From positions 1,240,001-1,304,000 of the forward strand of contig NW_026570232.1 of assembly GCF_019649055.1 (NCBI RefSeq): 64,000 nt of DNA, read 5' to 3'. This stretch comes from Paramacrobiotus metropolitanus (taxonomy: Eukaryota > Tardigrada > Eutardigrada > Parachela > Macrobiotidae). Below are positions 7,534-48,122 of this stretch, in pieces (the first letter of the stretch is position 1; each line of letters opens with the position of its first letter). The position numbers and the translations under genes are program-made. The notes beneath the pieces are model-generated. The model was not told the DNA's origin. It made no database searches and saw nothing but the letters and a program-made list of their open reading frames with translations.

Positions 7534-10500
7534 TTAACCCGGATAATGTGGTCCGGCGCCATATGGAGGATACTGAGCTTGGTAAGGCATGGCGTAGTTG
7601 CCGGGCGGCGGCAGGCCTGGGTAACCAGGAGGTCCGTACTGAGGAGGAAGAGGTGGTCCATACTGGCCCCCACCGTACTGGGGCGGTGGTCCGTACTGGG
7701 TGTAATTACCGGGACGGCCGTAAGGCTGCGGACTTTGTCCGTACGGGTTGCGCGCTGGAGGACTGGGATAGTCACCTGAGTCGTCGTAGTTGTTCTTTTT
7801 GTCGGAGCCGCATGACAGTTCCGATAGATATTTGTCTGCGATATAAAAAACAAATTAGTACAGTTTCCATGGGAAGCGTGAAAAGGTCATGCTTCTCACA
7901 TACCACTGTATATGTTCTCGCTAAATACAAATTTATAAAAGGTATACAAAGAAATAGGAATACAAAATTTGTAAGAGTATGCAAGATACAGTGTTATTAT
8001 CGACAAAGTGCTAAATCGTTACAAGAAAATAAAAATACGTGCCATAAAATTTGGCCGGTCGCGTGCACGCCACGCATGTTGACGATGATCCACAGCACTT
8101 GGATTTGTAGCTACAAGACTCGGCCCCGTAATAATGGGACTCCTTTCCAATTTCCGTTGGGTTGATCTCGCCCGGCGTGTAGTCGCCGCAGGTGGAGACG
8201 TTGTTCATGGCCGCCACGAGACTGGACAAGCAGTAGGCTCGCAATGACTTGGTCGGACTGGTCACAAAAATGTACTGGCATGCGTCACTGTGACCTCGCA
8301 CATACTGTAGATCGGAAGCCTAAGAAACAAAGAAGTGCGTTGGATAACAAGAATTACAAGACTTCTGTAGAAGCGCAGCACCGTTTACCTGGTCTGAGCC
8401 GCGGAGGAAGACCACTTTGTCTTGTCGCAACTGGTTAGCGCTGGTATCGTACAACATGCAGAAGGAGGAGTATCTGGGTTGGCCTTCCACGACGGTATAA
8501 TTGCAGCAGTGCAGGACATTAACCGAAGCGCACATGAAGGTCATGTTTCCGGCATAAATAACATTTGCCTTGTTGATACCTATAACAATCGTTCATACGA
8601 AATTAGCTGCAGTAACATTTGCCGGCATCTCTATGAATCAAATTATAACTGATACCTTAGAAAATTTATACTACAATTATCTATACGAGTTTCAAAATCG
8701 ACGAACTTTGTACTCGTACAACATTAGGATTTTGGCAAAATACTGTATACAGTATGCATCTGTACATTTATTTATCGTTGTTTTTGAAAAATGTATAAAC
8801 ACATGTGTCTTATGTATCACTAACAAAATGTAATTCATATGTGCATATCTTCTCGTATAATTATATCATTTACATGTAAAATGTATGGCAGTACTAATGA
8901 AAATTAATAAGTTTTTTACAACGCACCGCATAATGGATAAATGGGCGCGTAACTTCCGTCGGTATTCGAGCAGCCGATATTTGTGATTGTCTCAATCAGC
9001 TTATTCCTGCAGACGTACTCCTCCACATCGGGATTAATGGAGAAATGCACAATGGGGGTTGTGCATTTTTCCACGGAATAATTTCCCGTCGGCGAATCGC
9101 GGTTCACAGTGATGACGCCCGGCACCGGTGCGGAGTCAACACCTTGTTTGGCCACCAAAAAGGCTTGCGGTGTCTTGTGCACCAGCCACATGGAGGCGTC
9201 CACCGTGGAGGTCACTGGCAGATTGCCGCAGTAGTACCATTTGTAGTTGTTGGGGCAGATGTGGTAGATCGGCGGGAGTATGTCGGAGGGCTCGCGGATC
9301 TGGTCGTAGCGGAAAGCGGTGTGGTAGCTGGAGAAGACGGTGACGAGGCAGGAGAGCTCCTTTTCCGTGGTGAAGCCCACACGTCCCACGCCGCTGAGAC
9401 CGGTGTTGAAGATGGATTCTACCTGGTCAAAGGTGATCTGGTAGTTCTCCTTGAAGTTCACCTGGTATATGGTGGATGCGTAGCCGCGGATGAAGCAGAC
9501 GATGTAGACGTAGGTGTTCAGTCGGAGTTGCTACGAATTAGTGCATTAGCGTTCAAAACAATTCTGCATATAAACTAAACCGTACAAATATTAACTAAAA
9601 ATATGCATATAATTTTCTGTATCAGCGTGACCGGGCTTTGCGTACTCTCGTATCGATAATATCCTTAACTTTTGTCGCATTTAAGCATGTTAAATAAGCG
9701 ATTTTACCTTGTTAAGATTAATAATAAAATCTCACCCGTATTTTCCAGCACGGATATGTAGTTTCTACTGAAGCAATTTGCGCACCGACAGTGACAGCTT
9801 GATAAGCGGGCTGATAAGGGCCTTTTTGGGGACCGTAACCAGGCTGGGGCGGGGCGTACGGATTGGGATACGGAGTGCGTTGGTCATAACCGTATGCCGG
9901 GCATTTTAGGGAGTAGCAGTAGATTCCTGTGATGTCGTAACCGTAACCGGCCGAACACAGATATCTGGCATAGTACAACAGCACTTTCAATTCATTTTAA
10001 AAAATACATGAAGTGTAAAATCTCCGCAAATTCAAAAATAAAATAAATACGTTTGTCTTAATTAATAGCAAATGTATCGTTTGTTTCGTTTATGAAATGA
10101 CAGTGTCTGGAAAACGTGCTTACTCAACGTTTGGATCAATGGAACTGGATATGAGGATAGTGCTGCTCGGACTCTGCGCGTTAGGATCGGAGCTGGATGC
10201 CCTCAGCGATGTCGTTACTCCGCAGCTGGTGTAGTTGCCGTCCTCACCCGGTGGAAATTTGTACCTGACTGCGCCACTACCGGTTATCCATAGCGCGCAA
10301 AAACCTGAATTTGGATACAACAAAACAATATGTAATGCACTTATGTAATACACTAAATATATGTACAGATATTTAAAGCAATAAATGTGATATATGATAA
10401 CAACGTTTAAGTTTACCAACTTTTTGTATCTGAAAGAGCTTTTGAAATGCAAAAAGTACGAAACTAGTTTAACAAACACGATATAATTTTTAAAGAAAAT

Positions 10501-10573
10501 AAAAAAGGATTTTGCGTAGAAATATTGAAGTTACTTTACCGGTCAGCAGAACGAGCCGCGCGTACGCGTTCAT
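7534..10573 (-). CDS. Secreted Cys-rich protein with Pro/Tyr-rich segments, family unknown
   Basis: Exons on the minus strand: 10573-10540, 10304-10124, 9964-9736, 9530-8927, 8579-8389, 8319 to about 8050, and 7835-7534 (TAA 7536-7534). The first five junctions agree in phase. It starts MNAYARLVLLT then, after a phase-1 intron, GFCALWITGSG, a convincing signal peptide. The body has about two dozen cysteines in short pairs (YYCGNL, HCCNY, SKCCG) and several N-glycosylation sequons, so it is extracellular and disulphide-bonded. Two low-complexity stretches are present: a PYPNPYAPPQPGYGP block in exon 3, and a C-terminal tail of QYGPP/PYG repeats in the last exon. I do not recognise the family. 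The exon 6 to 7 junction is unsettled, because the last exon needs phase 1 and the best-looking donors near 8050 are phase 0 or 2; a small unseen exon may exist. Confidence 0.7.
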
Positions 10574-10609
10574 CTCACACCCGCGTTCAGTCAGATCTAT
10601 TGTAATTCC

Positions 10610-10615
10610 CTTATA
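10610..10615 (-). promoter_or_regulatory. Possible TATA element
   Basis: TATAAG on the minus strand, 37 bases before the ATG of the secreted Cys-rich gene at 10573. The spacing would give a 5' leader of only about ten bases. Tentative. Confidence 0.35.
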
Positions 10616-12252
10616 GCAAAATGTGTCTCAGCGTGTGGGCCGTATCATGAAATGTATTTAACTTGACATGGGGATCCTGTTGCGTAATAATGTATTGGAA
10701 ATGAACCAAGTGTGTCAAACAGCAACACAACCACCAGCAAAAGAATCAAGCCAGCTGCATGTCTCCGGAACTAAACGGTCAATACCAGCGGTTTCCTCCT
10801 AAAGAACTCGGTGTCGCTGGAGAATGACCGCTATGGACTAAGGGTCAACATTCCGTACCCGTAGCCTCTTTACTATGACAATTGTTGGCATTTTTTTCTG
10901 GCCTGCGATAATTTGACCTAATCCGATGCCGATCAAAATCGGGAATGACTGTGTATGTGTAACTGTACATTCGCATATGTACAGATTGATCTAAAACATT
11001 AATCCATGCGTTCTAGATTAACTATAAAAACACAATGCTGTGTTGACTCCCGTAATAAATTAGGCTCCGCACATACAGAAAATTACCGGGGTAAAATGGC
11101 ACAACAAACTCATCCACCAGAGTACTGTTGATCTGTAACTTGTTGTGCTGAGTTTTTGCTTTCCCGTGTATTCCTTTTCTGCTGATTGCTAAATCTGGGC
11201 GTTTTTTACGTAGCTCACAAGGGTTTACTATGCTGGTTTGATTGGCGAAATTTACTGCGCGATAGTTATCTGTACATTGTTAAAGTATATTGCCGCTTTT
11301 GACCACACTTCATATAAAATTGTAAAATATAGTGATACGACAAAAAATATTCGCTAATAAATTTAAAAACTGCATGATATAATCAGACATGGCATGGCCT
11401 TATGGGAGGGAAAAGAAAACAGTTTTCTGAAACGATGCACATTATGCCCAACGGTGCCGAAAACATATGATTATTAACAATGGTGTCACGTTTTGTTCCA
11501 TCCAAAAATTAACTACTACTTTTTGCGATTACAGGCGTATATTTTATATTTAATCATGCCACATGTTACAACTTTATCGGTTTGCCGTTTATTCATAACG
11601 GTATTATATTCTGCAGCAAAGGTACTCCAAGTATCCGAAAATACGCAGCATCATGTTGCTCATTAAAACATTGCTGTGTGCTCCTTGCACCGTTTAAATA
11701 ACACTTGATACGACATTTTTCTGTTAGGATAGCTGCAGATGTGTGATATCTTTAGTTATCCTTAACGTATGCGTAAAAAAAAACTTTATTACCAAAACTT
11801 TATTGAGAACTTTATCACCAGCGGTTTCCAACAAGTCAGTATGTCCTCGAAGCTGAATCTGGGTGACATCGGCCGTTTTTAGGATATAACACACTGTACA
11901 TGTTTTCAGCTCTTAAAGGTCAAAAGTGATGACGGTTCTATCGCATCAATAAACCGAATTTGTCTAAGTTCTCTATTAAATCATAAAATGCACAGTAAAA
12001 AATTCAATGATTTGTTTTACTATGGCAAAATACAGTAATAGCTGACTCGATAAAACATTTACTAATCATGTAATTATATCAATTTTTCTGTCGGTTGACC
12101 CGAAGGTTTTATTTTAGAGTAGACAAATATGGGCAAAACGCCCTGACAACTAACAGTGAAGATAACAACCAAATATTCCGCATCCTTATCCAAAACAAAA
12201 ACACTATCAATATGCCGTAACAGACACTGCTGAACCAGGCGCGGTAGTCGGC
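10616..12252. other. Intergenic, nothing recognised
   Basis: AT-rich spacer with no credible coding exon in either strand. A minus-strand polyadenylation signal for the next gene lies at its right end (12113-12108). Confidence 0.5.
12108..12113 (-). terminator. Putative polyadenylation signal
   Basis: AATAAA on the minus strand 140 bases past the TGA of the Tyr/Gln-rich gene at 12253. Confidence 0.45.
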
Positions 12253-13121
12253 TCAGTAGGACGCTCCTTGATACTGTTGTCCGTAGGAAGGACTGGCCTG
12301 CTGGTAACCGCCCTGGTATCCGCCCTGATACTGCTGGCCCTGGTAATTACCGGATCCGTAGTTAGCCACACCGTATCCGTAGCCCATTTGATACGCTCCA
12401 TAGCCCTGATAACCTGAGTATCCGGTGTCCTGGTACGAGGCATACGACGGGGACGAGCCCTGGTAGCCGACGGGCGGGATGTAGCCGGCGTAGCGGTTGT
12501 AGTAGTTGTAGTAGTTAGGATACTGGGGCGTGTAGGAGGCCTGGTAGTTGGGGGAGTACGAGGGGGTTTGGCCGTAATAGGACGCCGGGGCGGCGTAGGA
12601 TTGGCTGTACTGCTGGTTGTATGCCGGAGCCGCGTTGTAGTTGCTGTCGTACGTCTGAGCGGTAGCCGCAGCTATCACTGTAAAGGTCAGTATTAGTACA
12701 TACTATAGCATAAACATAATTGTAATAGTTATTATTACTAGTGACCGGAAGTAGGTATACCAAACAAGAAGAGACTAGCGGCCGTTTTATTGAATTAGTT
12801 AGAACTGGAAAAAAATAACATAACACAACGAAATCATAAAAAATTCAGCACGCTCTAACAAGGTGTGCTATTAGTTATCGATAAATAACGAATAAGTTTT
12901 AAATAGGATGTTAATTCTGGTTTGATTGCGCCCTACCACCTACCAAAATCATAATTTTTGTTATAACTATAGAAAAAAAGTTACAGCCTTATCTATTACT
13001 GCAGGTCCTTCTTATCTGTTATTCTGCTTAATGCCGTTGAATAGCCGTTGTATTCTCACAGAACAGAATAATATTATATGGAATTACCTGCTAAAAGAGT
13101 CGCTGCAACGAATAAGGCCAT
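12253..13121 (-). CDS. Secreted Tyr/Gln/Gly-rich repeat protein (152 aa)
   Basis: Two exons: 13121-13088 (34 bp, 11 codons plus one base) and 12677-12253. The first encodes MALFVAATLLA and the second continues VIAAATAQ, together a textbook signal peptide with cleavage probably after the AQ or TA step. The mature chain is almost wholly low complexity: Tyr, Gln, Ser, Gly, Pro and Ala, with short motifs such as SYSPNY, YNYYNRY and QGGYQGGYQQ. It has no cysteine and very few charged residues. Such composition is typical of structural extracellular proteins (cuticle, eggshell, silk or adhesive) that can be crosslinked through tyrosine; that role is inference. It shares gene architecture with the neighbour at 14827 and is probably its paralogue. 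A polyadenylation signal follows at 12113. Confidence 0.8.
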
Positions 13122-13883
13122 GGTTTTGTCGAGCACCGAAAATATGGAATAAATAATTTAGATGACCCGCGTAATCCCAGACTAACTGCAGTCTCGCAGT
13201 TATTGATTCCTTGGTGGTACAAGTGCGAACACCAACTAATTTGTCTAAATTGCAAAGAAGCCAGACTACGGCAATTTTACAATCGAAGGTCGCGTTTAGG
13301 CCGCCAAGGTTCAGTAGGAAGCATATTGTTTGATTTTATATCGGGCTGGTCTATCGGAGTACTGACCTTATTAACCTTGAATCCATTTAAAATAAAAAAA
13401 GTAAAACGCTTGTGGATGCAAAGGTAACTGTCCTTGTAGCGCATTGTTAAATACATGCAGCGTTCTTATCGATGTTCTTTGCGGCCGACGAACTTTTGTT
13501 TGCAGCAGCGGTCCATCACCATGCCGCTGCTTTGCATGTACCGGTAACTGGAACCCAGCGACTGTGTGTATCTGTACGGTATCTTTTGTTACCAATATTT
13601 AACATTATTTTTAATTGAAAACCAAAGTTAACGCACTAAAAGTAACTAATAACTAATAAGTGCAAGGAGCCAATATAGTAAAATTACTATTGACAATACA
13701 TCTATTTAATTGTTTAAATACTGTACTTTACGAATAGCACTAGTAAATGACCGGTAAAATGGCTTATATCAGACGGCTCATCGACACTGCGCCGACAAAC
13801 ACTGCTTCCACTGTCCCAAGGTCAAGCGCACGAGATCGATTGTCACAAGAGCGAGCGTTAAGAAAACCAAGGAATTTCGGAAA
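13122..13883. other. Intergenic, promoter side of the Tyr/Gln-rich gene
   Basis: No coding feature recognised. It should contain the promoter of the minus-strand gene starting at 13121; no clear TATA box is seen. Confidence 0.4.
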
Positions 13884-13990
13884 CTAAGAAACCTGAACTA
13901 CGCTCCTTTCGACGGGTTCCTTCGGCTTGCTGATGGTCAGCAAATTTCCGTCGACGAATTGCTGGGAAACCAGATCGGACGTACATTTTT
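13884..13990 (-). pseudogene. Orphan small heat-shock protein-like C-terminal exon
   Basis: After a CAG acceptor at 13991 the minus strand reads KCTSDLVSQQFVDGNLLTI, then a short Lys/Pro stretch and ERSVVQVS, then TAG at 13886. The TSDL, DGNLLTI and final V-x-V pattern matches the last two beta-strands and C-terminal motif of alpha-crystallin/Hsp20 proteins. No upstream alpha-crystallin exon is visible in the next kilobase, so it is either a fragment or the last exon of a gene with a distant first part. The plus strand is also open here with a CxxxxCxxC cluster, so the call is tentative. Confidence 0.35.
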
Positions 13991-14826
13991 CTGTTCAACT
14001 TAATATCTGTAGATATTAACGCAGTTACGCGCCCTGAATTACAGCGTTTATGCAGGTGCCGACCATATACAGAACAATTAGATGATTAGGCGACGCAAAT
14101 ATAAAATTATGCACACAGATATTAAATTATAAGAATGGTACATCTGTCGTCCCAGTCGTTTACCTGGGTTTTTTGTCGTTGCTTGCATTTATTGTTAGAC
14201 AGAGAGCAGGGCTGGACACAGACTGACACAGTAATTACTGTACATGTATGATGTACGAGTATCCATACAATTATATATTATCTAATACTGTAACTATACG
14301 TAACTCGTATCTACAGATAATACTGTAACTATACGTATTTTCCAATTTAGCATTTCTCATATTTGTTTTAAACAGTAGCTCCGGTGCTCGCACATCAACT
14401 TTGTTGCAAAATTGTAGTGTGTCAAAGTTTAAAAAATTATGACTGAGTCTCCTGGCTCCATGACGTTATTTTGCAAAAGCATTGATGAAACTCAAATCGA
14501 AAATGCTTACGTACGGGTGTATTGCGTAGGATACCGTAAAAGCCATAATTCTATGAATTGGTTACTGAAGCAGCTTTTTATTTTTATTTCAACAACAATT
14601 TTAGGTCTCTCAACGCAATACGTATCGAAGAAAGCACTCTTATACGCGTCGAATATATATTATGCATATCACGAGTTACGTGCAGTACTTAACAAAACAA
14701 CAAAGCACAGATTTTTAGCGGGAACATAGCAGCAACTATATGCGCCACAAATATGTAGTATTTATTTAGTCACAGAGAAAGCCGGTGCACTGCACCATGA
14801 ATATCATCCGGTGACCTTCCTGCCCT
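13991..14826. other. Intergenic with a short direct repeat
   Basis: AT-rich. A 20-base sequence (taatactgtaactatacgta) occurs twice around 14283-14337. Open frames here carry no recognisable domain. The 3' untranslated end of the next minus-strand gene lies at 14761-14826. Confidence 0.45.
14761..14766 (-). terminator. Putative polyadenylation signal
   Basis: AATAAA on the minus strand 61 bases after the TAG of the gene at 14827. Confidence 0.5.
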
Positions 14827-16124
14827 CTAGTAGGTAGCCGCCGGCGGGGCCTGGTAGCTGTAGGAAGTCTGCTTGTAGGTGGTCTGGGTGTAAGCCGGAG
14901 CAGCCTGGTAGGTCGCTGGCGCTTGATAGGCGGGCGCGGGCGCGGTGTAAGACTGAGAGTAGCTGGGAGTGGGGGCTTGGTAGGTGGCAGCTGGAGCCTG
15001 ATAGGCGGGCTGGTAAGCCGGCGGCGACTGATAGGTGGGAGCAGGCGCTTGGTACGCTGGCTGGTAGGATTGTTGGTAAGATGCAGGTTGTTGGTAGGAA
15101 GATGGTTGCTGATAGGCTGGCTGGTAAGATTGTTGGTAGGCCGGCTGCTGATAAGACTGCTGGTAGGCTGGCTGTTCATAGGTAACGGCCGGTTTCTGGT
15201 AGGTCTGCGCACCGTAGGCGTGGTAGGACGGAGCCGGCTGTTGGTAGGCGGGGGCGGCGTATGAGCTGTAGGTCTGCTGGGTGTAGGTCTGCTGGTAGGC
15301 CGGCTTGGAGTAGTTGCTGTACGATGGATAAGCGGGTTTGGAGTAGTTGCTGTAAGAGGACTGGTAGCTGGCCGGTGCGGTGTACGCTGGCTGCTGGTAA
15401 GTCGGGGGTGCCGAGTACGAGGAGTAGGCCGGCTGGGCTGGTGCGGAGTAGGGGGCCTGGTAGGTCGGCGGCGCGGAGTATGATGAATACGCTGGCTGAG
15501 CCGGCGCGGAGTAGGATGCTTGATAGGTGGGGGGCGCCGAGTAGGACGTCGCCGGCGCGGTATAGGAAGACTGGTAGGTGGGTGGCGCGGAATAGGAGGA
15601 GTATGCCGGCTGCGCCGGGGCAGAGTAGGATGCAGAGTACGTGGACTGCGAGTAAGTCGGTGCGGCCGGTGCTTGGTAAGCCGGAGGTGAATAGGACGCC
15701 GGTGCTTGGTAAGCCGGAGGTGAATAGGATGCCGGTGCCGTGTAGGCGGGAGCTGCTGCGTAGGGAGTTGGCGCCTGATAGCCTGCGGTCAGCGCACTGC
15801 CGATGACTACAATCAAACAGCATCACGATTAAGCACTACAATGAATACTGAAATGTACTAAAATTAACTGAATATAACAAACAGGGTTTTTTACAAATGA
15901 CTTTGCAGATCATCAAATATTACCGGCACCACTGCTTATCAAGAGATACTTTTTCTCACATTATTATGACCAAGACTAGTAATTACGTCGTATAAAGTAA
16001 GCTGATTTCTTTATATTATATGAATAATATATATCTATACAGTTTTTACTTCTATCGCTGAAGGGGAAGTATTCCTTATTGCAAGCAGAAACTTACCGGC
16101 TGCTATTATCGTTAATGTCAGCAT
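14827..16124 (-). CDS. Secreted Tyr/Pro/Ala/Gln repeat protein (335 aa)
   Basis: Exon 1 is 16124-16097 (28 bp, MLTLTIIAA plus one base) and exon 2 is 15806-14827. Joined, they begin MLTLTIIAAVIGSALTAGYQ, a clear signal peptide. The rest, about 315 residues, is built from Tyr-containing units: AYQAP, PPTYQ, SYSAP and QQPAYQQSYQ. A 19-residue unit, YSAPAQPAYSSYSAPPTYQ, occurs three times almost unchanged between about residues 70 and 145. There is no cysteine and hardly any charge. Because the codons are repetitive, several other frames are open on both strands; they are by-products. Likely an extracellular structural protein (cuticle, eggshell or secreted matrix), with tyrosines available for dityrosine crosslinks; this is inference. 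Its nearest relative in the window is the gene at 12253. Confidence 0.85.
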
Positions 16125-18799
16125 GTTGCAAACAAATAAATTAAAGACGTCGTTAAAAAAAGAAAACTATTGGAAAACTGATGACCTATCCCGTTAGACT
16201 TTGAAATTGTCAAATCTAAATTAAAACGGAATGAAAGTATATCCACCGGTCTACTGTACTGCCACAATCGCAACAAATTTGTCTGCCTGATAATAAATGA
16301 GCTTTTATATTATTTGTGCCCCGTTGTTTTCTCTTCTGTCGTAAAGGCTACCAGTGGCTTTGACCGCCGTTTGTAACCAAACAATTGCCAATCTGGGCCG
16401 AATTTTTCAATTATTTTCCAGCTTCCGGTTTGCAAAAAATCGGTTCACTGCTTTTTGTGGACTTGATCATGTAACGCTGCACTTTGCACTTGTCTGAAAT
16501 CTGAGTGCGAAGGCAGTTTATCAAGTTTATTTGACTGCAAAGCCGAGCACAAAACATACACAAAAACAACGTGTAATTTTCAATATCAAGATGGCCGGTG
16601 TCGCGATCGGTGAACGGCTGAGCGCACCTTGTTAGGTACGGTGCACATGCACATCAACCAAAAAAAGTTTTAAAACGCTCTTTTTAGTACAGAAAGTTTC
16701 GTTCTAGAAAAAAATTGCACAAATGGTAATATTAAAATATTTTCGGAATAGGATTACTTAGTGTTTCTTAGTATATCGCTATCTTTATTTGGAACTTGTA
16801 CAAGCAAATTAATGCCATTTGCACTTAAGCCCACTTAGCAGATCATTCTAGCAGTTTATCTTTTGTATGTTTCGAAAACGTTTTGAAATAAAATATTTAT
16901 ATTATTGCAAGTACGTACTGTTGTACCCATATATACAGTAAGGCCATGACTGTGCAGCCGGATAAGTACTTTCGAAGCCTTTTAAGTTTTAATTTAGCCT
17001 ACAAAATGCAGTTTATGTACCATGTGAAAATGGCAACGCCGATGTCTGCTGCACACAGAACAATCTTCTTATCGGCTTTGCAAAAATTAACAAATTAATA
17101 AATGTTGATACCTGAATGCATTAAATATAGTGACTGTAATTCTCAGCTATCTCAATTTTAGTAAAATTAAAATAATTACGTTGACGGTTACTCTGAGTAA
17201 TTGTAGGTAAATTTGACAATCGCGGTGAGGCGATGAATATGGTTTTCATTATCGTTTGTAAGTGACTGTAACATTTTCCATTCTCTCTGACACCCGTGAC
17301 AGTGAACTTGATGTTTATTCAAGGCCTAAAAGAGGCTTACGTATTTACAGTAAACACTCAGCGCATGATCTGTTCAAAAAGCCCGTCTTGACTGATGATC
17401 AGGTTGGGACTTATCATTCAACGCCGCCACTGACTACCGGCACACACGGGCAGCCGTAATACCCGCTGCCGACGGACGTTGTCTAATCGGCTGCCGTGGC
17501 GGGCGCATTACCATTATCAAGAGCCGGACTGTGCTGGCCGCTTAAATCCCCCGCTGCACTGTATAAACTACCTGACTAGACTATGTAAAGTCCTCTGTGT
17601 ACTCGAGGAGGATCTCATGGTAACGCCCGAAATTGTCTGCGCTTCAAATGCGCTTCATAAATAAATAATCTTGTCAACAGTTCAGCACAGCCGAAACTGG
17701 ACAACCGCCACTTGCAGTCACCGTACGACGTACAGTACAGTTTATCAAAAATCAACTTATGGTAAAGTTTACGCAACGGACCGCTCGGTGGCACTGCAGG
17801 CTAGCGTCACGGTCTCAGCAAAACCGAAAACCGCTGCCCGTGACCTTTTCCACCAAAGCCACCAAAGCCCCAAACCAAAATATGCCAAAATATTAGCCGC
17901 AGAACAATGCCGCCATAGTAATTTTATGACCGAAAGGAAGTTTACTTACTGCCGCCCAAATATATAAAACAAGTTGTTTTAAAGTTTATATGCACTATTG
18001 CAAAGATTGGTAGCATTATCATTGCCTTTTTCCTTAATTCATGATCATGATATCGCTAAGAGTAAAATAGTTCAAATGCTCCAGCCGCTATAGCTCAAAT
18101 GCAAAAAATTTAAAATTTATCTTGACATACAGTACCTAGCTTCCACATAAAACTGATCTGTGAACTGACTTATGTCGAAAAAAAGTAAAAATGGATATAC
18201 ATGTAGTTACACATATTATAGTTACAGTAATGTAAATGTATATGTTAAAGTGGCTAGAAATTGTTGATTACAGAAATCGTTGGTCAAAAATGCCGGCGCC
18301 GAAGTCGTAAGCATTTCCTTAAAAGATTGTTCGAAAGAATGGATTGTGTGTATCCGTTGGCTTAATTTGTTGCAAGTGTTGTCAGGTGTTGCAATACACA
18401 GCAAAAAAACAGCGCACAACCAGGTTTCTACGTTCATTCAGGTTTTTACTGATGTTGTTGCTCATGAAAACTCAGTAAGCAAAGTGTTTCAGCATTAAGT
18501 ATGGTGCAGACTTTGAGGAATTTCCCTAACCATAATTTATTTGACTTACATGCGCTTTCAACAATCAACTCGACAATGTAATAATTGTGTGTTCCCAGAT
18601 TTCAAACTCAAACTACTAGTATGTACCGCTTTCTGATGGTCGCCTGGCGGCCCGCTTGACCAGCCGCCATTGTGACTGTACTGAACCACAAACCGTTCGA
18701 CCGGCACATGACGTATCCATCACCTAGGCCTGCCTCACCACTCTCCATCCATCTTCAAATTGCAACATTACACGCAGTCAAGCATCCCCGTTCTCGCAG
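16125..18799. other. Long intergenic region, nothing supported
   Basis: About 2.7 kb separates the divergently transcribed repeat-protein and superoxide dismutase genes, so it should hold both promoters. Open frames of 60-100 codons on the plus strand near 17262-17967 are Thr/Ser/His-rich, without domains, coding-like conservation or splice partners. Confidence 0.45.
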
Positions 18800-18800
18800 C

Positions 18801-18808
18801 TATATTTA
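18801..18808 (+). promoter_or_regulatory. TATA box of the superoxide dismutase gene
   Basis: TATATTTA located 87 bases before the ATG at 18888. A start of transcription about 30 bases downstream would leave a leader of about 55 bases. Confidence 0.5.
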
Positions 18809-18887
18809 GCCAGACCAGCAGCCGCACATTTGTATCATTTTCACATTTCACTCTGTCCAGCATAAGGTATACCGGCAATATACCACC

Positions 18888-20701
18888 ATGCTGCAGCGCG
18901 GATTTTTACTTCATCTCGGTATCACATTCCTCGCCCTCCACCAATGCCTGGCCGTCCCGAATGATCCCGCTGCCAAATCCCCCAACGGACAGGAACCGCG
19001 CGCCGGACCCCAAGCTGGCAGCGGAGGGGCGCCCCAGTCCAACAGCCCGACGACATCGCTCTTTGCCACGACCTTTAATGTCAGCCCCAACGGCCGGGTA
19101 TCCGGTCTGATGGCCAACATGGGCGCTCCCTTCCCGCAGCGCCTCTTACCACCGAACCGACCGGGACCGCAGCTGGGACTCTCAGGAGCCCTCCCGGGAG
19201 CAGCGCAAGGAGCGGCCGGTGGGAAAAACGCTATGCCGGATGCCAGCGCGCTCATCCAGGCCCGGCAGATGCAGAATGATTTTGTCCAGATGAACAACAT
19301 GATGAATCCCATGATGAACCCCATGCTGCAGGGCCGCAACTTCCCGCCGATGCCGCCGGGAATGCCCTTTGGGGCCATGCCGCAACGTATGCCAACCGAT
19401 CCTGCTGGCGCCGGTGCCGGAGCCGATACGAGCGCGGCAAATAATATGAATATGTTTAACCGCATGCCGGGTGGCGGTTTTCCCACCGGTCGACAGGATC
19501 TGGGAGCGGCGGCCGCATTTGGGGCGGCAGCCATGGCCAGCCAGTACCGGCCCGTGGTCAGCCCGACCGGAGCATCGTACATGGAGGGATTAATGCCGCA
19601 GTACCGACGCCCGATCGCTGGTAATGAGATCCCGGAGAGCCGTGGTATGTACCCAGGATCGTATCCGGGATACGGTGGATATGACAAATATTCGGCCTAC
19701 TCCAAACCGGCTCAAGCAGTGGTTATTGTAACTGGACCGTATGGCGTCAGTGGATTGGTGAATTTGACACAGTACTCTCCCGATGCGCCGGTAGAACTCA
19801 GCGGAAGGATTGGCGGCGTTCGACCAGGTACGACCAGGATAAGTATGTAATCGTTACTCCCGGCGCCGACAATATTTTTTATGTATTCGTAACGCCATTT
19901 CCAAGCCATGATGTTTCCAACTTGTGATAAAAAAAACAGCATCAAAATTTGGGAATGTTATGTATATCTCGGTTTTATATTTGTGGCATTACGTGTAATG
20001 TAATAACTATTATGCTAGATCTAAAATTTATATAACACAGAACATATTAATATATATTTATCTCCTGATAATGCGTTTATCCAACGAGCGGCTGCTTGGA
20101 GCGAATGTTACCGGTATACACTAATCAACTGCGATCATTTTATGGTAAACAATTTGACATTACTTTGAAGGTGACCATGGATTCCACGTCCATACCTTCG
20201 GAGATTTAAGCATGGGATGCGAGTCGGCTGGTTCGCATTTCAATCCTGAAGGTAACTACCACGGATCGCCCGATGATGCACACATGCAACCGCATGCAGG
20301 AGATCTGGGAAATGTCCGAGCGAATGGTACGCAAACTGCAAAGGCCAAAGCAAAAAAAATGTGAATTAACATAATAACAAAAACTAAGTATATATATATC
20401 GGTTTTATATATACAGTTATATGAAAATAAAATATTTTTGCCGGATATTACCTTCACCGTTAGTAATAAATGAATTATTCCGGTGTTTTCAGAATACGGC
20501 GAGGTCATTGTCACCGTTTCGAGCCCGCTCATTTCCTTGTATCCACAATCGCCTTCCTTTGTCATTGGCCGGACGTTGGTTATCCACGAAAAGCCCGATG
20601 ACCTTGGACGGGGCGGCGATCAGCAGAGCCGCGAGACCGGAAATTCCGGTGCACGCATTGGATGCGGCATTATTGGCTTTGGCCCGGCTGCCAGCTATTA
20701 A
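18888..20701 (+). CDS. Secreted Cu/Zn superoxide dismutase with Met/Pro-rich N-terminal extension
   Basis: Exons 18888-19827, 20171-20326 and 20493-20701 join in frame (phase 1 twice) to 434 residues. Residues 1-22 are a signal peptide ([16 protein letters not shown]). Residues 23 to about 275 are disordered, rich in Pro, Gly, Ala, Gln and Met; 128-168 holds eleven methionines, including [11 protein letters not shown]. The SOD fold runs from about 276 to 434. Copper ligands His319, 321, 336 and 397, zinc ligands His336, 344, 355 and Asp358, the Cys330-Cys423 disulphide and the active-site Arg420 are all present, so it should dismutate superoxide outside the cell or in the secretory pathway. 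Ordinary extracellular SODs are about 160-240 residues; the extension is the odd part. A TATA box precedes it and AATAAA follows at 20946. The SOD assignment is very firm; the extension's role is unknown. Confidence 0.93.
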
Positions 20702-20945
20702 CATGCCCCGCCAATCGGCCCTTCTTCTCCAATATGCAACGTGATAAAAACATTTTGTTTGTCCACTGGCTGGCGCCCATTTTTGTATATGTTGTTGTAA
20801 ATATTTTCTATGCATCTAACTGTAAAAAGTTGTCGGTAACTTTTAATATGATTAACGAAGATGCAAATCGGTACATACAATGAATTCTCTCTGATCTGTA
20901 AATACACTCGTACCGATGTGAAAATGAAAAAAAGTTCTATGGATG

Positions 20946-20951
20946 AATAAA
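20946..20951 (+). terminator. Putative polyadenylation signal of the SOD gene
   Basis: AATAAA 245 bases after the stop codon at 20701, on the same strand. Confidence 0.4.
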
Positions 20952-21043
20952 TAGCAAACCAATAACTTTTCTCAGTTTTATCGACATACTAATTACTAAG
21001 TACTTAACTGGATAAGGTTCGAGTGCAAAAACAAAGAAAAACA

Positions 21044-21113
21044 TTTTAACTGTAAAGCAGGGTGTCCGCGTTTGCGCTTTATGGTATATTTTGATGGCAA
21101 TTGCCTAATAAAG
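21044..21113 (+). repeat. Dispersed repeat, copy B
   Basis: Resembles 5592-5660 (same start ttttaactgtaaag, then a related GC-containing core and an attgcc end). No coding remnant of the retroelement precedes it, as expected for a heavily 5'-truncated insertion, or for a separate short element sharing the tail. Confidence 0.5.
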
Positions 21114-22226
21114 GATTCCGAGCAGACAGCAGAGTATAGTTATCGTATTGGTTTATTAACAATGTTTACGTTTAGCATTATATTTATGTCGCTTTCTAGA
21201 GGTTTTTGCATCTTATGTTTAGGTTTTCGCTATTAGGTTAAACACTATTAGGTTTTCGCAAAGTGTGTTGACGACCTTCGAATTCGCGGTTGGTTCACTA
21301 TTCCGTTTTAGCCACTGTTAATATTACTAATTTTCACTTTTCGTCTGTTCAATTTTTATCTATTACAGTATCAGTATTTTTTATTTCTGTGGGGCCTAGC
21401 CAGGTTCCTACCGAAAAAATGCCAACGCGGGCCTGGCGATACCGGCAAAAGCAGTTACACTGTTACCGGAATCGTAATAAATTACGTACACAGTTCATGA
21501 TTCTGGTCATTCAAAATGTACGAATGAAACCTTAAATTCAATATAAATTATATAATACGCTACTTGCAATAAATTTACGATATCACGACTTAGAAGTTTT
21601 AAATTCAATCTCAAATTCGTGTGATTAGTGGAGCGTACTGACAAGCTGACATCGGCATTTTATCAAAGAATAAACCGTTTCTTTGAATTTTAAAGTATTA
21701 ATTTTACCGTTCTTTGTCAGCCGCATAATGGGGTTATATTAGGACACTGCACGTCGTTCAGGCGGTTAGCATCCGGTAGCGCTATCAGTGCGCTGTATGA
21801 ATCATGATTTTTCCAGCCCATTCAGCAATACGTCACTGCAGCAGCAGTATTTTTCACTATTTTGACACGTTGGACTCGCATGCCGTAGTCTCGTACTGTA
21901 CGTAGATAAGAAAAATAATCTTGAATTTTTAAATCGCTTCTGATTACGGATTATTGAAAATAAATTGAAAACTGAAATTAATTCAAAGCTTCGGTTACTT
22001 TAGTTATTCGGGATAGCAAGGGTTTCTCGGATACAGCACGGTTTTGATCAAGTACTGGGATTTATTAGCAATTTTTACGTTTATCGCAGTTTTTTGCCCT
22101 TGCAGCAGCTGTATTCACCAACCACCACGCTGACGTGGATCTGGGACAAGAACCTTATACGATCTGTTCTTGTCAGTTTTACTCCTTACTTGATTTATCT
22201 GTTCCTTCCTTTCGCTTATTTGCAAA

Positions 22227-25200
22227 ATGGCTGATGACAACCCAAGCAAAGCTGATGTTGCAGCAGCGCTGAAAAGACTGCGAGGGATTTCCAGTAATAA
22301 GGTAAAATTTTTAAAAACAAATAGAAAGTAATTGCGCATCGAATCAGATGCCCTGTAGACCGTCTTGTGTTGGTCGTTAAGTCAAGCAGGTTTTCATCTT
22401 ATGGTGCTGGTTTTCTAGACATGTTTTGATTGTGGAGCAAAAAATCCCACTTGGGCCAGCGTAACATATGGAATTTTTTTATGTATTGACTGCTCGGCAG
22501 TTCACCGATCTTTGGGAGTTCATTTATCGTTTATCAGGAGCACGCAGTTGGATACCAATTGGACATGGCTCCAGCTACGTGCTATGCAGCTCGGGGGAAA
22601 CGCACATGCTGTAAGTTGTATAACTGCGGAACTTTGCCACGTTCTGTTCGTTTGAAATGGTTTTGCACACACCGAACAGAGAACTCGTCGTGGAGAATTG
22701 ATTTCGAAATTATTATCCGGATAGCGATGTGATTGCGTAAATCATAAAATTGCTGTTATCCATAAAAGTGATAAAATACTAACGAATATAGTTTTGCTTA
22801 AATAGTGTTGCTAATTTGACGTGGCTTTTGGATTGACTTTTTTAGGCGGAATTTTTCCGACAGCATGGGTGCACGACAACGGATGCTCAGCAAAAATATA
22901 ACAGTCGTGCTGCACAATTGTACAAAGATAAACTGCAGCAAATGAGTATTCAAGCCATGAAAGTCCATGGATCAAAGGTACGAGAGAAAATCAGCATAGA
23001 ATGATAAAATATTATTTTTCTGGTAATAAGTTTGTGCTGTAAAAAAGGCTTTAAAATAATCTGTACAAAAATATTAGTCTGGAAGGATTATCCGCACTGG
23101 AATTATGTAAATTTGTGCATGGCTCATTTTATGCGCACCGGTGTAAACCTTCAGCGTAAAATTACTTAGTATGTTTTCTGCCAAATTCAGTCAGCAGTTT
23201 ACGTACTTTCATGTTAAGCTTTTACCCGTACTGTATAGCTTTTTGGTGTTGCAGCTCCATTTAGAGCATATTGTCGACGCCAATCCAGAAGAATCCGCGC
23301 CCAAATCCAAAAAAGATGATAATTTCGATTTCTTTGAAGTTCATTCGGCAGAAAATATTCAAGAAGACAATACAACGTGGCAGCAGACGAAAGAAAACAA
23401 ATCATCCAACAAAGCGAAAAATGGAAGTGCAAAGTTAGGCGATGGTATGTTTTCTCATCGGAGTGTACTTAGGCCGTTCCCCTTGATTCACGGAAGTTTT
23501 TTGCTTCCGTACCATCTTACCCATATGTACTGCGGCTTTTTGTTTTATTTTTGTAATAGGAAAGTTTAATTTGTGAAAATTATTATTGTTTTTAGATAAT
23601 TTTATATTTTACTACATTCATGGATTATCACCGCAAAGAATTACATTTTTAACGGTTTAGGTTTCTTTTCCTGTAATTTTTTGCATTTTATGTGTTTTTC
23701 TACCTTTGTTTCCTGTTTGCTACTTTCCAGCTACTGGCGAAATACTCTTGAACCCCAGCCTTCCACAGAACCGTTGTGTGAATGTTCTTTGGAGTTTAAT
23801 GTTCAGTTCGTTTCAGATCTGCTTGGTCCGTCGGTTGAAGCCGCCCTGAACGATACCGCTGGTTCCGAGCATTCCAGCCCTATTGGCAAACATACACTGG
23901 GCACCCGTAAGACCGCTGGACCGAAAAAGGGTAAACTTGGCGCTCAGAAGGTTGAAGCCGATTTCGAAGAATTAGAGAAACAAGCTGAAGAAGCTGAAAA
24001 GCGTCGTTTGGAATCGCTGGCTGCCCGGTCCAAGTTCGAAGTCAGCAGCGCGGAGGATTCGAGCAAGTAAGTCAACCGTGTCGGTTACCTTTATGGGTGC
24101 TCCTGCAGTGTTTCTCAAGAACTTCCTGTAAAGCACAGTTAGGTTATTGCGTTAAACTTCATATTGTTTAGGGCGCAGATTTTGATGGTAATGCTAGATT
24201 TCTTGTCCGAGTATTTTTTCCGTGACTTATGAATCAGTACGTAATAACTCGAGAGTACGACATAAAGACAAGAGCATGCGAAGTTAAAATAATCAGCATT
24301 ATTTAGAAACGTTATCAGTAATTACTGTATTTGGGTTTACTTTATGAACAAAGTAAAAAGGATATAGCCAACAACAATTATAATGTTTCTTCGGGGTTTA
24401 TTTCGGTTCTTGTTAGATACTCACTAGATATGTTGTGTAGGATATCTGCACGCTTTGCGTACCAAGATGTGGACGTGGACAGGAAAAAAGAGGAAGAGCG
24501 TATAAAAAAGGCAGATCCGAAAAAAGCTGAACAATTAGAGCGGCTGGGGATGGGTGTCGGCGCCAGAGGGTACGTTTGCCCTAACTATCTGATATGTGTA
24601 CATTGTAGATAGCTGGCACATGCGTAAGTTTATTCGCTTGGTTGTATACGCCGTTATTATAAGGGTTACTGTAATTATAAGATTTGTAGCTTTGCTGTGT
24701 GTGTCCAAAGTAATATGTTTTTATTGTAATTCGCCAGTGACTTTTTGTGGAAATTTTGAAGGATTCTCGTTAACTGTTTCTTTGCAAGACCGTGTTCATT
24801 CGGAATTGGGTTTTGTAATTACACAGGAAGATTAGTCATTCCATTTTATCCGACATGACCAAGATCGAGCAGGAACGCCCAGCCGGACGCAATGAGTTCA
24901 GATCGTATGGTGCTGTGGATCGTCAGCCCAAGGAAGACGATTGGGAAGAAAGTGGAAACTCTCGGTAACAAATCTGATTTGCCGCTGTTTTGTGGTTTTG
25001 CTCATGTTTACGTCGGAAATCAGGGTCTGACGTAAAGTTTAATCACATTTTTCTTTTTTATTATGTTGAGGTAGTTTCGGTTATTTTGCATACATTTCGG
25101 ATGAAGTCAGATTTATTCTCGAGGTACTTAGACTTGGCAGTTTAGACCTGCAGTGTGAACGTTTGGTTGTAGCAATCGGGATCGTGAGGAATTCAAGTCG

Positions 25201-26284
25201 TTTGAAGATTACATGAACCGCATGACGGTTAGTGATCGGTCGACGGCATCCGGCAAATCCTCCTCATACGACGATGACTACGGCAAGAACACTTCACACA
25301 CATCTGCCAGCGACAGGTAATTGGGTTTTGCTTACCACTTGACACGTGGTCACACTGCTGGAGAAACTTGTCAACTTCAGAAATGGGGAACTCATGTGTT
25401 GCGTTTTGTGTATGTAGTAGTGCGTCACGATACAAGAAACCCGATACGAGCAGCGCAGCCGGTGATGATGCTCAGAAGAAGTTTGCTAATGCCAAGTCAA
25501 TCTCATCGGATATGTATTTTGGCAATGATAAAGCCAGCGATGTAAGTGCTCGTGGGTTTAATTCATAGTGACCCGTTAAGTTGAAGTTGTAACCTTATTT
25601 ATATTAAATTTGCAATATACATGTAAAAAATAGTGCGAATGTTTTCGGGTGAACTGAACTTCGCAGTTTTGGTTCATATGTGTACTTAATGGGAATCGTA
25701 GTGTAAAGGCATTGCAGTTTCGTACAGATTCCAAAATAGCAGTGTCGAAACACTGGAGGAAATATTTGTCATAAAAAGGCGATATAAAATTTTAGCGTAA
25801 TATGTGCTAATATATTTCCTAATTATTTTTTTGAGATTGAATCTGTAATACTTACTTATTAAGTACGAGTACATTAATCATCCAGATTAATCATTCGGAT
25901 TGTATAATACTTACCAAAAATGCGTAAATTCTTTTGTGTGCTTCAGAATTTAAGGTATGTAAATTCGTGTAGGTATGTAAAATGAGCGCACGGTACTTTC
26001 GGTTGTTTCATAATGTTCCTTATTATTGGTTTTAGTGGGAGACCAAGAGTAACAATTCGCGCTTCGATGGGAAGAGCAGCATTTCCAGTGCCGAATACTT
26101 TGGCACCGGCTCGCCACAGTCCACTTCGCGTTCCTCGACGTACAGCAATCTGAACCTGAACCTGCAGACGCCGGATCTGACGGAAGTGAAGGAGAGCGTC
26201 AAGCAGGGCATCACCAAGGTGGCTGGCCGGCTGTCCACCATGGCCAGCAATGTTATGACCAATATTCAGGAACGATATGGTTGA
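22227..26284 (+). CDS. ARFGAP3: ArfGAP2/3-type ADP-ribosylation factor GTPase-activating protein
   Basis: Ten exons: 22227-22301, 22419-22610, 22846-22977, 23255-23444, 23817-24066, 24441-24569, 24827-24964, 25173-25316, 25418-25541 and 26036-26284. All are GT-AG with matching phases, giving 540 residues against about 520 in vertebrate ARFGAP2/3. The ArfGAP zinc finger is complete: Cys27-x2-Cys30-x16-Cys47-x2-Cys50, followed by the catalytic arginine finger Arg55 (CX4R). Later landmarks typical of ARFGAP2/3 are GAQK, the RFAYQDV stretch, [23 protein letters not shown] and the C-terminal amphipathic segment ending NIQERYG. Family members stimulate GTP hydrolysis on Arf1 at the Golgi and bind coatomer, controlling COPI coats. 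ARFGAP2 and ARFGAP3 cannot be separated here; an invertebrate usually has one such gene. The acceptor of exon 9 is a doubled TAG. Confidence 0.95.
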
Positions 26285-27082
26285 TCACGGGATTATCTAG
26301 CATGCTGGTTTGGAAGAAAGAGTTTATTGTTCATTTTTTGGTGAAATCAATTCCTTTTTTTTAAATCTAAGGCATCATGCGGCTTGTTCATTTGTCAGCG
26401 CGTGTGGTGGTCATTGTCGTGGGTCAGTGGAGTGTCGAAATGGGTTTCGTATGCTAACCTTAGCGGCCTGCAAAGCAGTAGAGAGTGGAATGATTTCCTG
26501 TGTTTGGTTGGAAAGGTTGGTGAGTTCGGCGCACCAGCGTGAAAATTATATTTGGAAATTTAATAAAAAAAGTCTGATAACAATGATATCAGTGTAGGAT
26601 AACGATGAAGATGTAGAACGAATGGGTTTTTTGGCGGTTTGCATTAAAGATGCATTAAGCGATTTTATGTGCAACACTTTCAGAGCCTTTTAGCTGTTTT
26701 TTTATCTGCACAAAATTCAAAAACTGTGCCTTCGATGTCGATTGTCGGAAATTTTACTAAACGACAGCCGTAGCGCACCGTACAAAAGACGTAAATATGT
26801 GCCCGACATAAATTTCACATTACAAGAAAAATAGCGGACAAATATAATCAATACGCAACAATTTTTGGCAGACATTAGACAGATCACCATAACTCACAGG
26901 AAGAACACCAAATTAACACAGTTGAAAGTTGGATAAGTCGTACGCTAATAACTGTCTCTTCATAATTCTGTTTTTTGCGCAACCGGGAGAAATGCCACCA
27001 AGTGCAGAACAAAGGGTAATAATTATCCAAATTGAAACTATCCATCAATCGATCCGCACAGGAAGTCGCGCGGACATATTAT
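26285..27082. other. Convergent 3' region of ArfGAP and receptor genes
   Basis: Two 3' ends meet here. A plus-strand AATAAA lies at 26562-26567 for the ArfGAP transcript. Nothing else is recognised. Confidence 0.5.
26562..26567 (+). terminator. Putative polyadenylation signal of the ArfGAP gene
   Basis: AATAAA 278 bases after the TGA at 26284, in an A-rich context. Confidence 0.4.
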
Positions 27083-30000
27083 TTAAACGGGAGTTTCGTT
27101 ATCCAGCGCCAGCGCCGTTAAGAAGGTGGGGTTCCATTTGACGTTCGGCTTGAAGTGGGTCGAATCGGAGTTTGGTAGGAGGATGGCGCGTTTGTTGTTG
27201 GACGGTCCGCCGGTGCAGCCGGTGGTGCTGCAGCTGCCCGACAGACTGGACCATTCGCGGCAGTTCTGGACGGTGCGCTGCAGTTGGCGCCGGCACTGCT
27301 GACCGGCGTCCTTGCTGAACGGGCAACACAGCAGGCGGAAGAAGGCTTTGCGGAACAGCGGATTCACCACCGTATACACCACTGGATTCACTAAAATCGG
27401 TCGGTCCATTAGTATTTCTTTTAAAAAGTTATGCTAAAAATAATTGTAGTTTGTTAAATGCTTAGCCATTTCCCATGTAATTAATGGCTGCCCATGAAAC
27501 ATCGTGACAATATAAACATCTAGTCGAGTAGTTAAAACTTCCTTAATCAACAATTTAGCTTGAGGTGTGAGCAGTATTGCACCATACTGTATGCACTTCT
27601 CCATTGTACGACAATCGATGTAGCGGCTAAGTGCAAACTAATCACACAATCTTTTATAATGGTAATTATTTGGTACCGTATTAAATAATACTTCAAATAT
27701 CAGTTTTTGCCCTTATGTAACAAATCTTGAAAAGGTTTTAAATGTTTTTGCCATACAGAAATAAGCACTGAGTCCATTTAATATGAAGAAACAAGAATCG
27801 ATTCGGTTCCGATCTGTTTATGATAGATAGTCTGTGCGATTCAATTATTCTAAATTCCTCACTGTACTGCGCCGTATTTTATTAGGATTGTACTGCAGTA
27901 CGTATAAACGTAGTCAAGTGGCTTGAAACTGCATCCTTGACGTCGACGAAATGTTGCAATTGTTGGAATCTGTATAAGCCAGACTTCAAAATTAATTGAG
28001 AATATAGAGGAACAGGTTTAGGGCAGTTAGCGCACTGTCAGCACTAAAATATTGGTCACTACACTACAGTTTGGCGTGAGCCGTACAGTAACTTTGTATT
28101 TTTCGCTGTTTCAGTTTATGCTCGATTGGTACAGTAGTCTGGCTTGTACACAGCTTACAATTAATAGGCAATAATAGCCGACGCCTTTATGAGTCTTTAC
28201 GACTACCGACTGTCGTCATCAAGCAACATGTAGAAAAGCTGCAGGTGTAACGCGATTCATCAAGCCGATTAGGAGAATTATGATTTTACTAGAAGAGACG
28301 ATAATCAAACTCACAATATTAAAAAGGACACCACTCGGTTCACAACCTTTTTACGTTTCGTTCCCTGCACAGCCTTTTCCGGCAACTCCTTTAACTGTGT
28401 CTACCGGCACGTGCGAAACGGATTTAACTATTTGTACTTATTACTTTATTTCCTTACAGCTGTTTGTTCAATTATTGCGATCCGAGTTCTGTAAATGAAT
28501 GATGCTGCTACCAGCCTGCTGCCAGTAAACAGCGCACAAAAGAATGCTGTTTGTGTTGTCTACGCAATTAATTCCTGGATGTAGAAATGAACCAGGTATC
28601 AGGCAATCTTTCCAAACTTTTTTAAATCTTTTTAAACTTTGCAAAATTATAGTGTGGGAAATAAATCGCGAAGTTTTCTTATGCTCATGGATTATGACCT
28701 GGAAGAACTTAAAAGCGAAAAGACGAAAAGGTCGTGAGTACAAGAGGTAATTCGAACCGAGTGTAAGGTTGCGAACGGAGTGGTCACCTATGAAAAATAT
28801 TTTAGAAAGTTTCCTTTTCTCATGCAAACGGTTTTTTTTGTCAAACCATCCACCTCGATCGATATATTGTGCGGCAGAAACCTTGCCATTACTGAGGGTA
28901 AAGCACCCACTTCTGCGTGCTTCCAAAGTAATATCACCACAGCCGAACGCATTTGTGTATGATGTACAATACCTATGCTGGACGCCCATCCCAGCCACAA
29001 AAACACCTTGAGGACGATCGGCTTCGGTGAGCAGTCGTAGCCGTTGAAGAGGCAGGCGCCCATCCACAGATTGTTGACGAAGAAGGGTGTCCAGCAGGCC
29101 ACGAAGAGCGCGAAGACGATGCTGAGCACCTTGGTGGCTTTCTTCTCGCTGTCGACTTTCTGAGCACTGAGCTTCTTCTGGCGACGCCGATTGAACAGAT
29201 TTACCGCCGCCTGCATCTTGCTGACGCCCTTGGAGCTGCGCGTCGGACTGTTGGAGGTGGCCAGCGGCTCATCCGGCGAAATGTCCGACGCCGAGGACTC
29301 TTCGTTATGCGACACGCCGACGTTCCCGTTGGATCTGTCAAACGGGAAAATCACAACGATACAGTGGCTGAGCTGTTTTAGCGGCCGCATCATCGGGCAC
29401 TTCGGCATTTCCAGTTTTCTGAACTACGGCATTTCGGCCAAATCATATTTCATACTAAACCGCTTTTGCGGCTATACTAATCACATTAATATGTAATAAT
29501 GTTATATCCGGTTGCGCAACTGAATGACAGAGCGGAGATAGGGAACGGTATATAAAAATAAAAATAGTATATCTATATAATAGTACTGTGTAGTATACAT
29601 ATAAAAAAGTATATTCTTTTTACTGTGTAGTACAAAGTACTACAAAGTACTGTGTATTACAAAGTACTGTTTAGTACTGTGTAGTACAAAGTATACAAAA
29701 ATAGTACTGTGTGTGTAGTCTTTGAGTCAGAAAAACAAAAAGAGAACGATTATTCAAAACATGGCGACAACGAAAACGGATACATATAGCAGCTGCACTA
29801 CGGATGTTACAGTAAGTACTGTACCTGCGATGTTCGCCGCTGTTGCTATCACTGCGGTAGCGCGCTTTACAGCGTTCGGGCGGCGCCCGCTCCTGTGGTC
29901 TCCGCTTAATGGCCGTCCGTGAGCGGCTGACCGCCCCGCCGGCCTCGCGCTTCCCTTCCGACCAGCGGGCCTGTTCCCTTAGCAGTTTAACCGTCAATCC

Positions 30001-47613: not shown

Positions 47614-48122
47614 GCCAACGGATCCCCCGGATTCCAGGAAATCCGCCAACGGAAGCGGCTGTTAGTTAGTGTTGTAGTTTGGTTAGATAAAAATTCTGTA
47701 GTGTCTTAGTGCGGATGTTTGACCTTTGTGCTTTTCTTCGGTAGTTTGGTTCTTTGTTTCGGCCGGTTGTCATCTGTTTCGGTCTTTTTTTCGTTTAAGT
47801 TTTTAGCGGGAAAATTGCGTTTTGATCGTTGTGCGGAGACTAAAAAATTGACATCGTTTACTGTTAATGTAAAAGCCGCAATAAAGTTCGAAAAACCAAA
47901 CCTTCGCTTGGCTTGTGTACCTTTAATTTGCCAACGTTCAGAACTGGCGCAGTAACAAATTTAAGCCACCACAAATGTTTTGTACTGTAAAAATTACTTG
48001 TGCATATCTACGTACATCACATTTTACAATCCGAATCAATATTGCATTAACTTAGCTTTAATTAAAAAATTAGGGTTTTTGCGTCAGTTGCTACTAATTA
48101 ATTTTACTATTAATTATTTTAA
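47614..48122. other. 3' UTR of the repeat gene and convergent spacer
   Basis: Holds the T-rich 3' untranslated region of the plus-strand repeat gene up to AATAAA at 47880, then a short spacer to the 3' end of the minus-strand GT92 gene. Confidence 0.55.
47880..47885 (+). terminator. Putative polyadenylation signal
   Basis: AATAAA 267 bases after the TAA of the octapeptide-repeat gene. Confidence 0.5.

Follow-up and report, generated by a model that had tools for sequence, protein, structure and literature searches.

A Cu/Zn superoxide dismutase gene with a long methionine-rich, low-complexity leader in the tardigrade Paramacrobiotus metropolitanus

A predicted gene at positions 18888-20701 (+) of the analyzed stretch of Paramacrobiotus metropolitanus DNA (64,000 nucleotides of contig NW_026570232.1, hereafter the window) encodes a signal-peptide-like segment, a low-complexity leader that is rich in proline, alanine, glycine and methionine, and a complete Cu/Zn superoxide dismutase (SOD) domain; the core of the methionine cluster within the leader is a tandem repeat in the DNA. 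The best explanation, with a probability of about 0.47, is that the gene product is a secreted Cu/Zn SOD whose low-complexity, low-charge leader mainly tethers or concentrates the enzyme in the extracellular matrix.

The gene model consists of three exons that yield a spliced protein of 434 amino acids, with the stop codon ending at 20701. Its parts and the signals on either side are as follows:

18801-18808 (+): TATA-like element TATATTTA, candidate core promoter by pattern, 87 bases 5' of the ATG
18888-19827 (+): exon 1, with the signal-peptide-like segment, the leader and the first SOD strands, read from the translation
19828-20170 (+): intron 1, GT-AG, donor CAG/GTACGA
20171-20326 (+): exon 2, with the metal-binding SOD core (HVH, SHF, YHG, HAGD)
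20327-20492 (+): intron 2, GT-AG
20493-20701 (+): exon 3, with the remaining SOD domain (VIHE ligand, electrostatic loop, RIGCG) and the stop codon
20946-20951 (+): polyadenylation-like signal AATAAA, by pattern only

The start codon at 18888 is the first ATG and lies in the context ACCACCATG (ACCACC). An alternative donor of intron 1 at 19843 would add 15 bases and lengthen the loop that precedes HGFHVH by five residues; with the donor at 19828 the alignment to SOD1 is ungapped there. A search against Rfam returned no match at the gathering score anywhere in the window.

The leader, the signal-peptide-like start and the beginning of the SOD domain all lie in one open frame, in agreement with the original prediction that the extension and the start of the SOD share a single open exon. 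The SOD frame around exon 1 is open for 346 codons (18810-19850) and the other five frames of exon 1 contain 12, 8, 10, 4 and 3 stops. A chance open frame was rejected as an origin of exon 1, a given 940-bp frame being open in 2 out of 4000 simulations based on the first-order (neighbour) frequencies of exon 1 itself. The antisense frame of the leader (18911-19696, -) is also open, for 261 codons, which probably just mirrors the GC-rich composition of the coding strand.

An open exon could still conceal an error in the gene model or a splice form, such that the leader or the methionine cluster is missing from a part of the transcripts, or from all of them, owing to an internal start or a hidden intron. 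Four of the 45 AG sites in exon 1 (18896, 19045, 19139 and 19496) are preceded by at least 8 pyrimidines in 12 bases, with 11/12 at 19139. The two acceptors of the gene itself have 8/12 pyrimidines each, so they are no better than those four sites, and a cut-off of 9/12 would fail them; the case against a hidden intron is weaker because the cut-off of 8/12 that matches the acceptors of the gene admits these sites within exon 1. Splicing from the donor-like site at 19080 to an acceptor-like one at 19496 would excise 417 bases without shifting the frame and delete residues 65-203, and with them the whole methionine cluster; further donor- and acceptor-like pairs exist inside exon 1. Two ATGs within exon 1, at 19119 and at 19533, also combine a purine at -3 with a G at +4. 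However, the whole stretch of exon 1 is open in the SOD frame, signal-peptide-like start included, and an internal start would lose the signal-peptide-like segment. The donor-like sites within exon 1 match 6/9 consensus bases compared with 7/9 for the donor at 19828, although the second donor of the gene likewise matches 6/9. To judge from these features, an unspliced exon 1 with the leader present in the protein is much the likelier arrangement, and a misread or alternatively spliced gene is unlikely.

The Pfam domain Sod_Cu (PF00080), the sole Pfam domain in the protein, covers residues 287-426 and is matched over its full profile (1-133 out of 133, E = 1.4e-42). Seven ligand residues (H319, H321, H336, H344, H355, D358, and H397) are present in the alignments to SOD1, as had been claimed in describing a complete SOD domain with all metal ligands. 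We take H319, H321, H336, and H397 to be the copper ligands and H336, H344, H355, and D358 to be the zinc ligands, with H336 bridging the two metals. Both cysteines (C330 and C423) and R420 are also present in these alignments and presumably play their SOD1 roles as the intrasubunit disulfide and the active-site arginine, respectively. A phmmer search against the PDB matched 141 distinct sequences at E ≤ 0.001, and in the best 60 of these 141 the best-matching stretch starts at residue 274-277. By its sequence the enzyme part is a complete and ordinary Cu/Zn SOD that is predicted to dismutate superoxide.

Tandem SOD paralogues within the window were considered and rejected: tblastn returned the three exons of the gene itself and three weak matches, at 26130-26324 (-) (29% identity, E = 0.005 with the low-complexity filter off), 27072-27356 (-) (E = 4.1) and 61164-61223 (-) (E = 7.1). 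The first two were dropped as effects of composition after inspection of the ORFs of 25600-28500.

The part of the protein that precedes the domain contains the following features:

18888-18953 (+): signal-peptide-like segment, residues 1-22, with a hydrophobic core and a CLA end before VPND, assigned by eye
18954-19712 (+): low-complexity leader, residues 23-275, rich in P, A, G and M, 253 residues
19269-19391 (+): methionine cluster, residues 128-168, 11 methionines in 41 residues
19289-19325 (+): 12-bp tandem repeat, 3.1 copies, encoding residues 134-146 (Tandem Repeats Finder, 84% matches)
19644-19715 (+): Tyr/Gly/Pro-rich linker, residues 253-276, 6 tyrosines in 24 residues, directly preceding the SOD domain

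An extension of about 250 residues ahead of the SOD had been predicted and corresponds to the 253 residues (23-275) found in the gene model; the accompanying prediction of secretion is in line with the signal-peptide-like start at residues 1-22, as judged by eye. The leader contains 36 proline, 36 alanine and 35 glycine residues (~14% each) and 21 methionines (8.3%) among its 253 residues, has no histidine, cysteine or tryptophan, and carries few charges (17 K/R versus 11 D/E). As to its description as disordered, the composition (28% P+G) points to flexibility, but a charge-hydropathy analysis places the leader a little beyond the boundary towards compact chains (mean H of 0.446 with the boundary at 0.422). 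The leader may be better pictured as a sticky, partly collapsed chain than as an open one. Human methionine-rich prion-like domains are described as more hydrophobic than the usual ones and their host proteins as more compact (PMC9312190).

The leader has no match in Pfam and none among the best 60 of the 141 PDB matches, and a screening for homologues gave 155 pattern matches in prokaryote contigs and three in viral contigs, none of which was confirmed. This absence of relatives in the collections searched, together with the 12-bp tandem repeat in the DNA, would suit a fast-evolving low-complexity insert that lies between the signal peptide and the domain, has no function of its own and is perhaps cleaved off as a propeptide, and the leader does contain one dibasic RR (240-241) on the N-terminal side of the domain. 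Yet 253 open codons with a biased composition and a tyrosine-rich end are long for an unselected insert, and one RR on its own gives a protease little to recognise. A neutral or removable leader is considered unlikely.

The methionines of the leader are both more frequent and more clustered than expected. Overall, 21 out of 253 residues are methionine compared with an expectation of 2.3% (P = 6e-7); the average methionine content of human proteins is given as 2.2% (PMC9312190). The eleven methionines predicted at residues 128-168 were found as claimed, at positions 128, 135, 138, 139, 142, 143, 146, 155, 159, 164, and 168. Such a density in 41 residues, a length chosen post hoc, is exceeded or equaled in few shuffles of the leader (P = 0.0024), and the next-best stretch of 41 residues among the 91 stop-to-stop ORFs of at least 100 amino acids in the window contains five methionines. 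The copies of the tandem repeat are not identical, their identity to the reference copy being 81%. When the repeat is removed the leader remains enriched in methionine (15 out of 240 compared with 2.2%, P = 3e-4), but its best 41-residue stretch holds seven methionines and lies within the range of the shuffles (P = 0.14). The MxM and MxxM spacings behave in a similar way, with five in the whole leader compared with 3.2 on average in the shuffles (P = 0.19) and two after removal of the repeat (P = 0.53); four of the five are MxxM (shuffle mean 1.6, P = 0.07) and one is MxM. Three of the four MxxM spacings sit inside the repeat. Since removal of the repeat abolishes the significant clustering, a slippage-type repeat accounts for much of this clustering and of the copper-like spacing, and the leader is methionine-rich regardless.

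These spacings bear on whether the leader loads copper, that is, whether its methionine clusters capture Cu(I), either within the secretory pathway or extracellularly, and deliver it to the SOD site as the chaperone CCS would otherwise do. CCS is cytosolic and would not reach a secreted SOD, and eleven methionines in 41 residues with four MxxM and one MxM spacing would offer a place for Cu(I) to bind. The N-termini of the copper transporter Ctr1 carry MxM and MxxM motifs that are reported to be able to bind Cu(I) (PMC9117721), and the leader resembles these segments in having such spacings in a region that is expected outside the cytosol. It differs from them in lacking histidine and in a motif number that is at chance for its composition. 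The copper binding by methionine motifs that had been proposed for the extension finds no specific backing in the sequence: the spacings do not exceed those of the shuffles, neither histidine nor cysteine is available, and the densest part of the cluster is the 12-bp repeat. A copper role of the leader is possible from its sequence; the motif statistics do not favour it and we regard copper loading as improbable.

We infer the following course of events if the leader acts by tethering. The signal-peptide-like start would route the chain into the secretory pathway, where the SOD domain would fold and acquire its metals in the usual way, and the enzyme would produce hydrogen peroxide from the superoxide outside the cell. 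The role of the leader would be mainly physical, with a sticky tail holding or concentrating the enzyme in a matrix such as the cuticle or the eggshell, and its tyrosine-rich end would be a likely site of cross-linking by peroxidases that use the peroxide formed by the SOD. The methionines would mostly reflect the composition of a methionine-rich matrix protein together with the slipped 12-bp repeat, providing hydrophobic contacts as opposed to a dedicated copper site. The position of the tyrosine-rich linker (6 out of 24 residues) immediately adjoining the domain argues for matrix tethering, and the enrichment in methionine that persists without the repeat argues against it.

The other two roles originally proposed for the extension, an oxidisable sink and a driver of condensation, could each apply. 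The same stickiness could serve a different purpose if the leader formed droplets or gels that loosen upon oxidation of their methionines, so that an oxidative load would set the enzyme free or expose it. The leader is methionine-rich, low in charge and slightly compact by charge-hydropathy, and the SOD would generate an oxidant on the spot. Free methionine is oxidised slowly by peroxide, and re-reduction would require an extracellular methionine sulfoxide reductase. Methionine-rich low-complexity regions of yeast Pbp1 and of TDP-43 are reported to condense and to dissolve on methionine oxidation (PMC8394241), and the leader shares with these condensing domains (Pbp1/ataxin-2 and TDP-43) a methionine-rich, low-charge, low-complexity sequence. 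However, Pbp1/ataxin-2 and TDP-43 are intracellular, RNA-linked proteins, unlike this predicted secreted SOD, and the words "extracellular" and "secreted" occur zero times in the main text of that source (PMC8394241). A redox-responsive condensate appears improbable as well. A combined role would make the enzyme self-regulating, with the methionine-rich leader holding the SOD in a matrix gel and binding Cu(I) or sensing oxidation, which would couple the metal content or the mobility of the enzyme to its own oxidant; we give this no better than a small chance. If the methionines do bind copper or respond to oxidation, the leader would be an extracellular counterpart of the redox-sensing methionine-rich domains.

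The genomic surroundings of the gene contain the following ORFs and domains:

12253-12702 (-): Tyr/Gln/Gly-rich ORF of 149 residues with a hydrophobic start, 23.5% Y, 0.7% Met
14827-15822 (-): ORF of 331 residues with a hydrophobic start and YQAP/SYSAP repeats, 21% A, 18.7% Y, 17% P, 0 Met
22419-22634 (+): ArfGap domain downstream of the SOD gene, E = 3.1e-25
23600-24070 (+): ORF beyond the ArfGap domain, which we take to resemble a later exon of the ArfGap gene
47053-47613 (+): frame of YTRPYNTE repeats, 23.7% Y, 17.7% T, 1.1% Met

By composition, the two upstream ORFs (14827-15822 and 12253-12702, both on the reverse strand) look like secreted tyrosine-rich structural proteins. They are almost free of methionine, which counts against a matrix explanation of the methionine-rich leader. 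The strand opposite the YTRPYNTE repeat frame is also open (46910-47665 and 47077-47661) and the coding strand of that frame is uncertain. The neighbours suggest that matrix proteins are encoded in the region, and they are not evidence of a joint function with the SOD. Six-frame Pfam scans of 8001-12998, 12998-17995 and 20702-25698 identified nothing besides the ArfGap domain at E ≤ 0.01; elsewhere in the window there are exons of a GPCR, a GT92 protein, a galactosyltransferase and a cyclophilin.

Among known enzymes, the domain is shared with the animal SOD1-type Cu/Zn SODs and with their secreted relatives, the whole domain with its ligands, cysteines, arginine and electrostatic loop being common to both. 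In ordinary secreted SODs the domain is preceded by a signal peptide or a short segment at most. The gene described here differs from them by the 253 residues of its leader. A comparison with 40 prokaryote and viral SOD loci, which is a weak one for an animal gene, found a leader of this kind in none of them: the upstream in-frame stretch, measured from the farthest upstream start to the SOD domain, has a median of 37.5 and a maximum of 135 amino acids and contains at most six methionines in 41 residues. A contig labelled as viral (L001:841-1239) contains a Cu/Zn SOD frame with 45% identity to the domain and without a long leader.

Within the tardigrades the SOD families are reported to be expanded, with some members that have altered metal sites, and the authors assigned the enzymes to the mitochondria, the cytosol and the peroxisomes (PMC11313143, PMC6652013). 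The word "extracellular" occurs zero times in the main texts of these two papers, which counts against a matrix location. Extracellular proteins with a SOD fold are described from invertebrates, in the form of the Cu-only SOD repeat proteins (CSRPs), whose occurrence includes tardigrades, and the oyster protein dominin (PMC13017621). The SOD described here is like these in being a predicted extracellular SOD-fold protein of an invertebrate; the CSRPs differ in having several domains without a zinc site or an extended electrostatic loop, compared with the one complete domain here (PMC13017621).

The original prediction had also held that no standard extracellular SOD is known to carry such a leader. 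This stands for the methionine content, as term searches of the full-text literature, mostly at the level of listings and abstracts, found no SOD with a methionine-rich leader (the term "superoxide dismutase" is absent from PMC11401363 and PMC4897951), but it does not stand for the architecture. The shell-matrix protein Lotgi1|166131 of the limpet Lottia gigantea has predicted disorder at residues ~20-450 followed by a SOD domain at ~480-635, contains 12% P and 10% Q, and makes up 1.09% of the identified shell-matrix proteome (PMC4094399). Its methionine content is not given in the table of that source, which lists only residues of at least 10%. Both proteins have a long, proline-rich, low-complexity stretch followed by a SOD domain, as read here from the gene model; the limpet protein differs in its ~430 disordered residues and its molluscan origin, and the likeness is one of description, not of sequence. 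By this analogy the arrangement of a leader ahead of a SOD appears to be already known, and Lotgi1|166131 is the closest published case that was found.

Proteins rich in methionine occur in the same limpet matrix (PMC4094399). One that is rich in both glycine and methionine has 18% M and makes up 9.14% of the proteome, a glycine-rich one has 12% M (5.91%), and a third, described as methionine-rich, has 10% N, 11% P and predicted disorder at ~50-400 (1.43%). Because these methionine-rich proteins are major components of the limpet shell matrix, a methionine-rich low-complexity sequence is compatible with a matrix; by analogy such sequence is at home in the animal extracellular matrix, and the limpet source, in the parts that describe these proteins, claims no copper role for it. 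Similarly, the pharyngeal cuticle of Caenorhabditis elegans is described as containing many secreted low-complexity proteins that are predicted to phase-separate (PMC9629831). The authors of the limpet study note that peroxidases, which may cross-link the shell matrix, use the peroxide produced by SODs as a substrate (PMC4094399). If the leader of the P. metropolitanus enzyme does tether it, the gene would represent a further case of a SOD built into a matrix, in a position to supply peroxidases with the peroxide for cross-linking.
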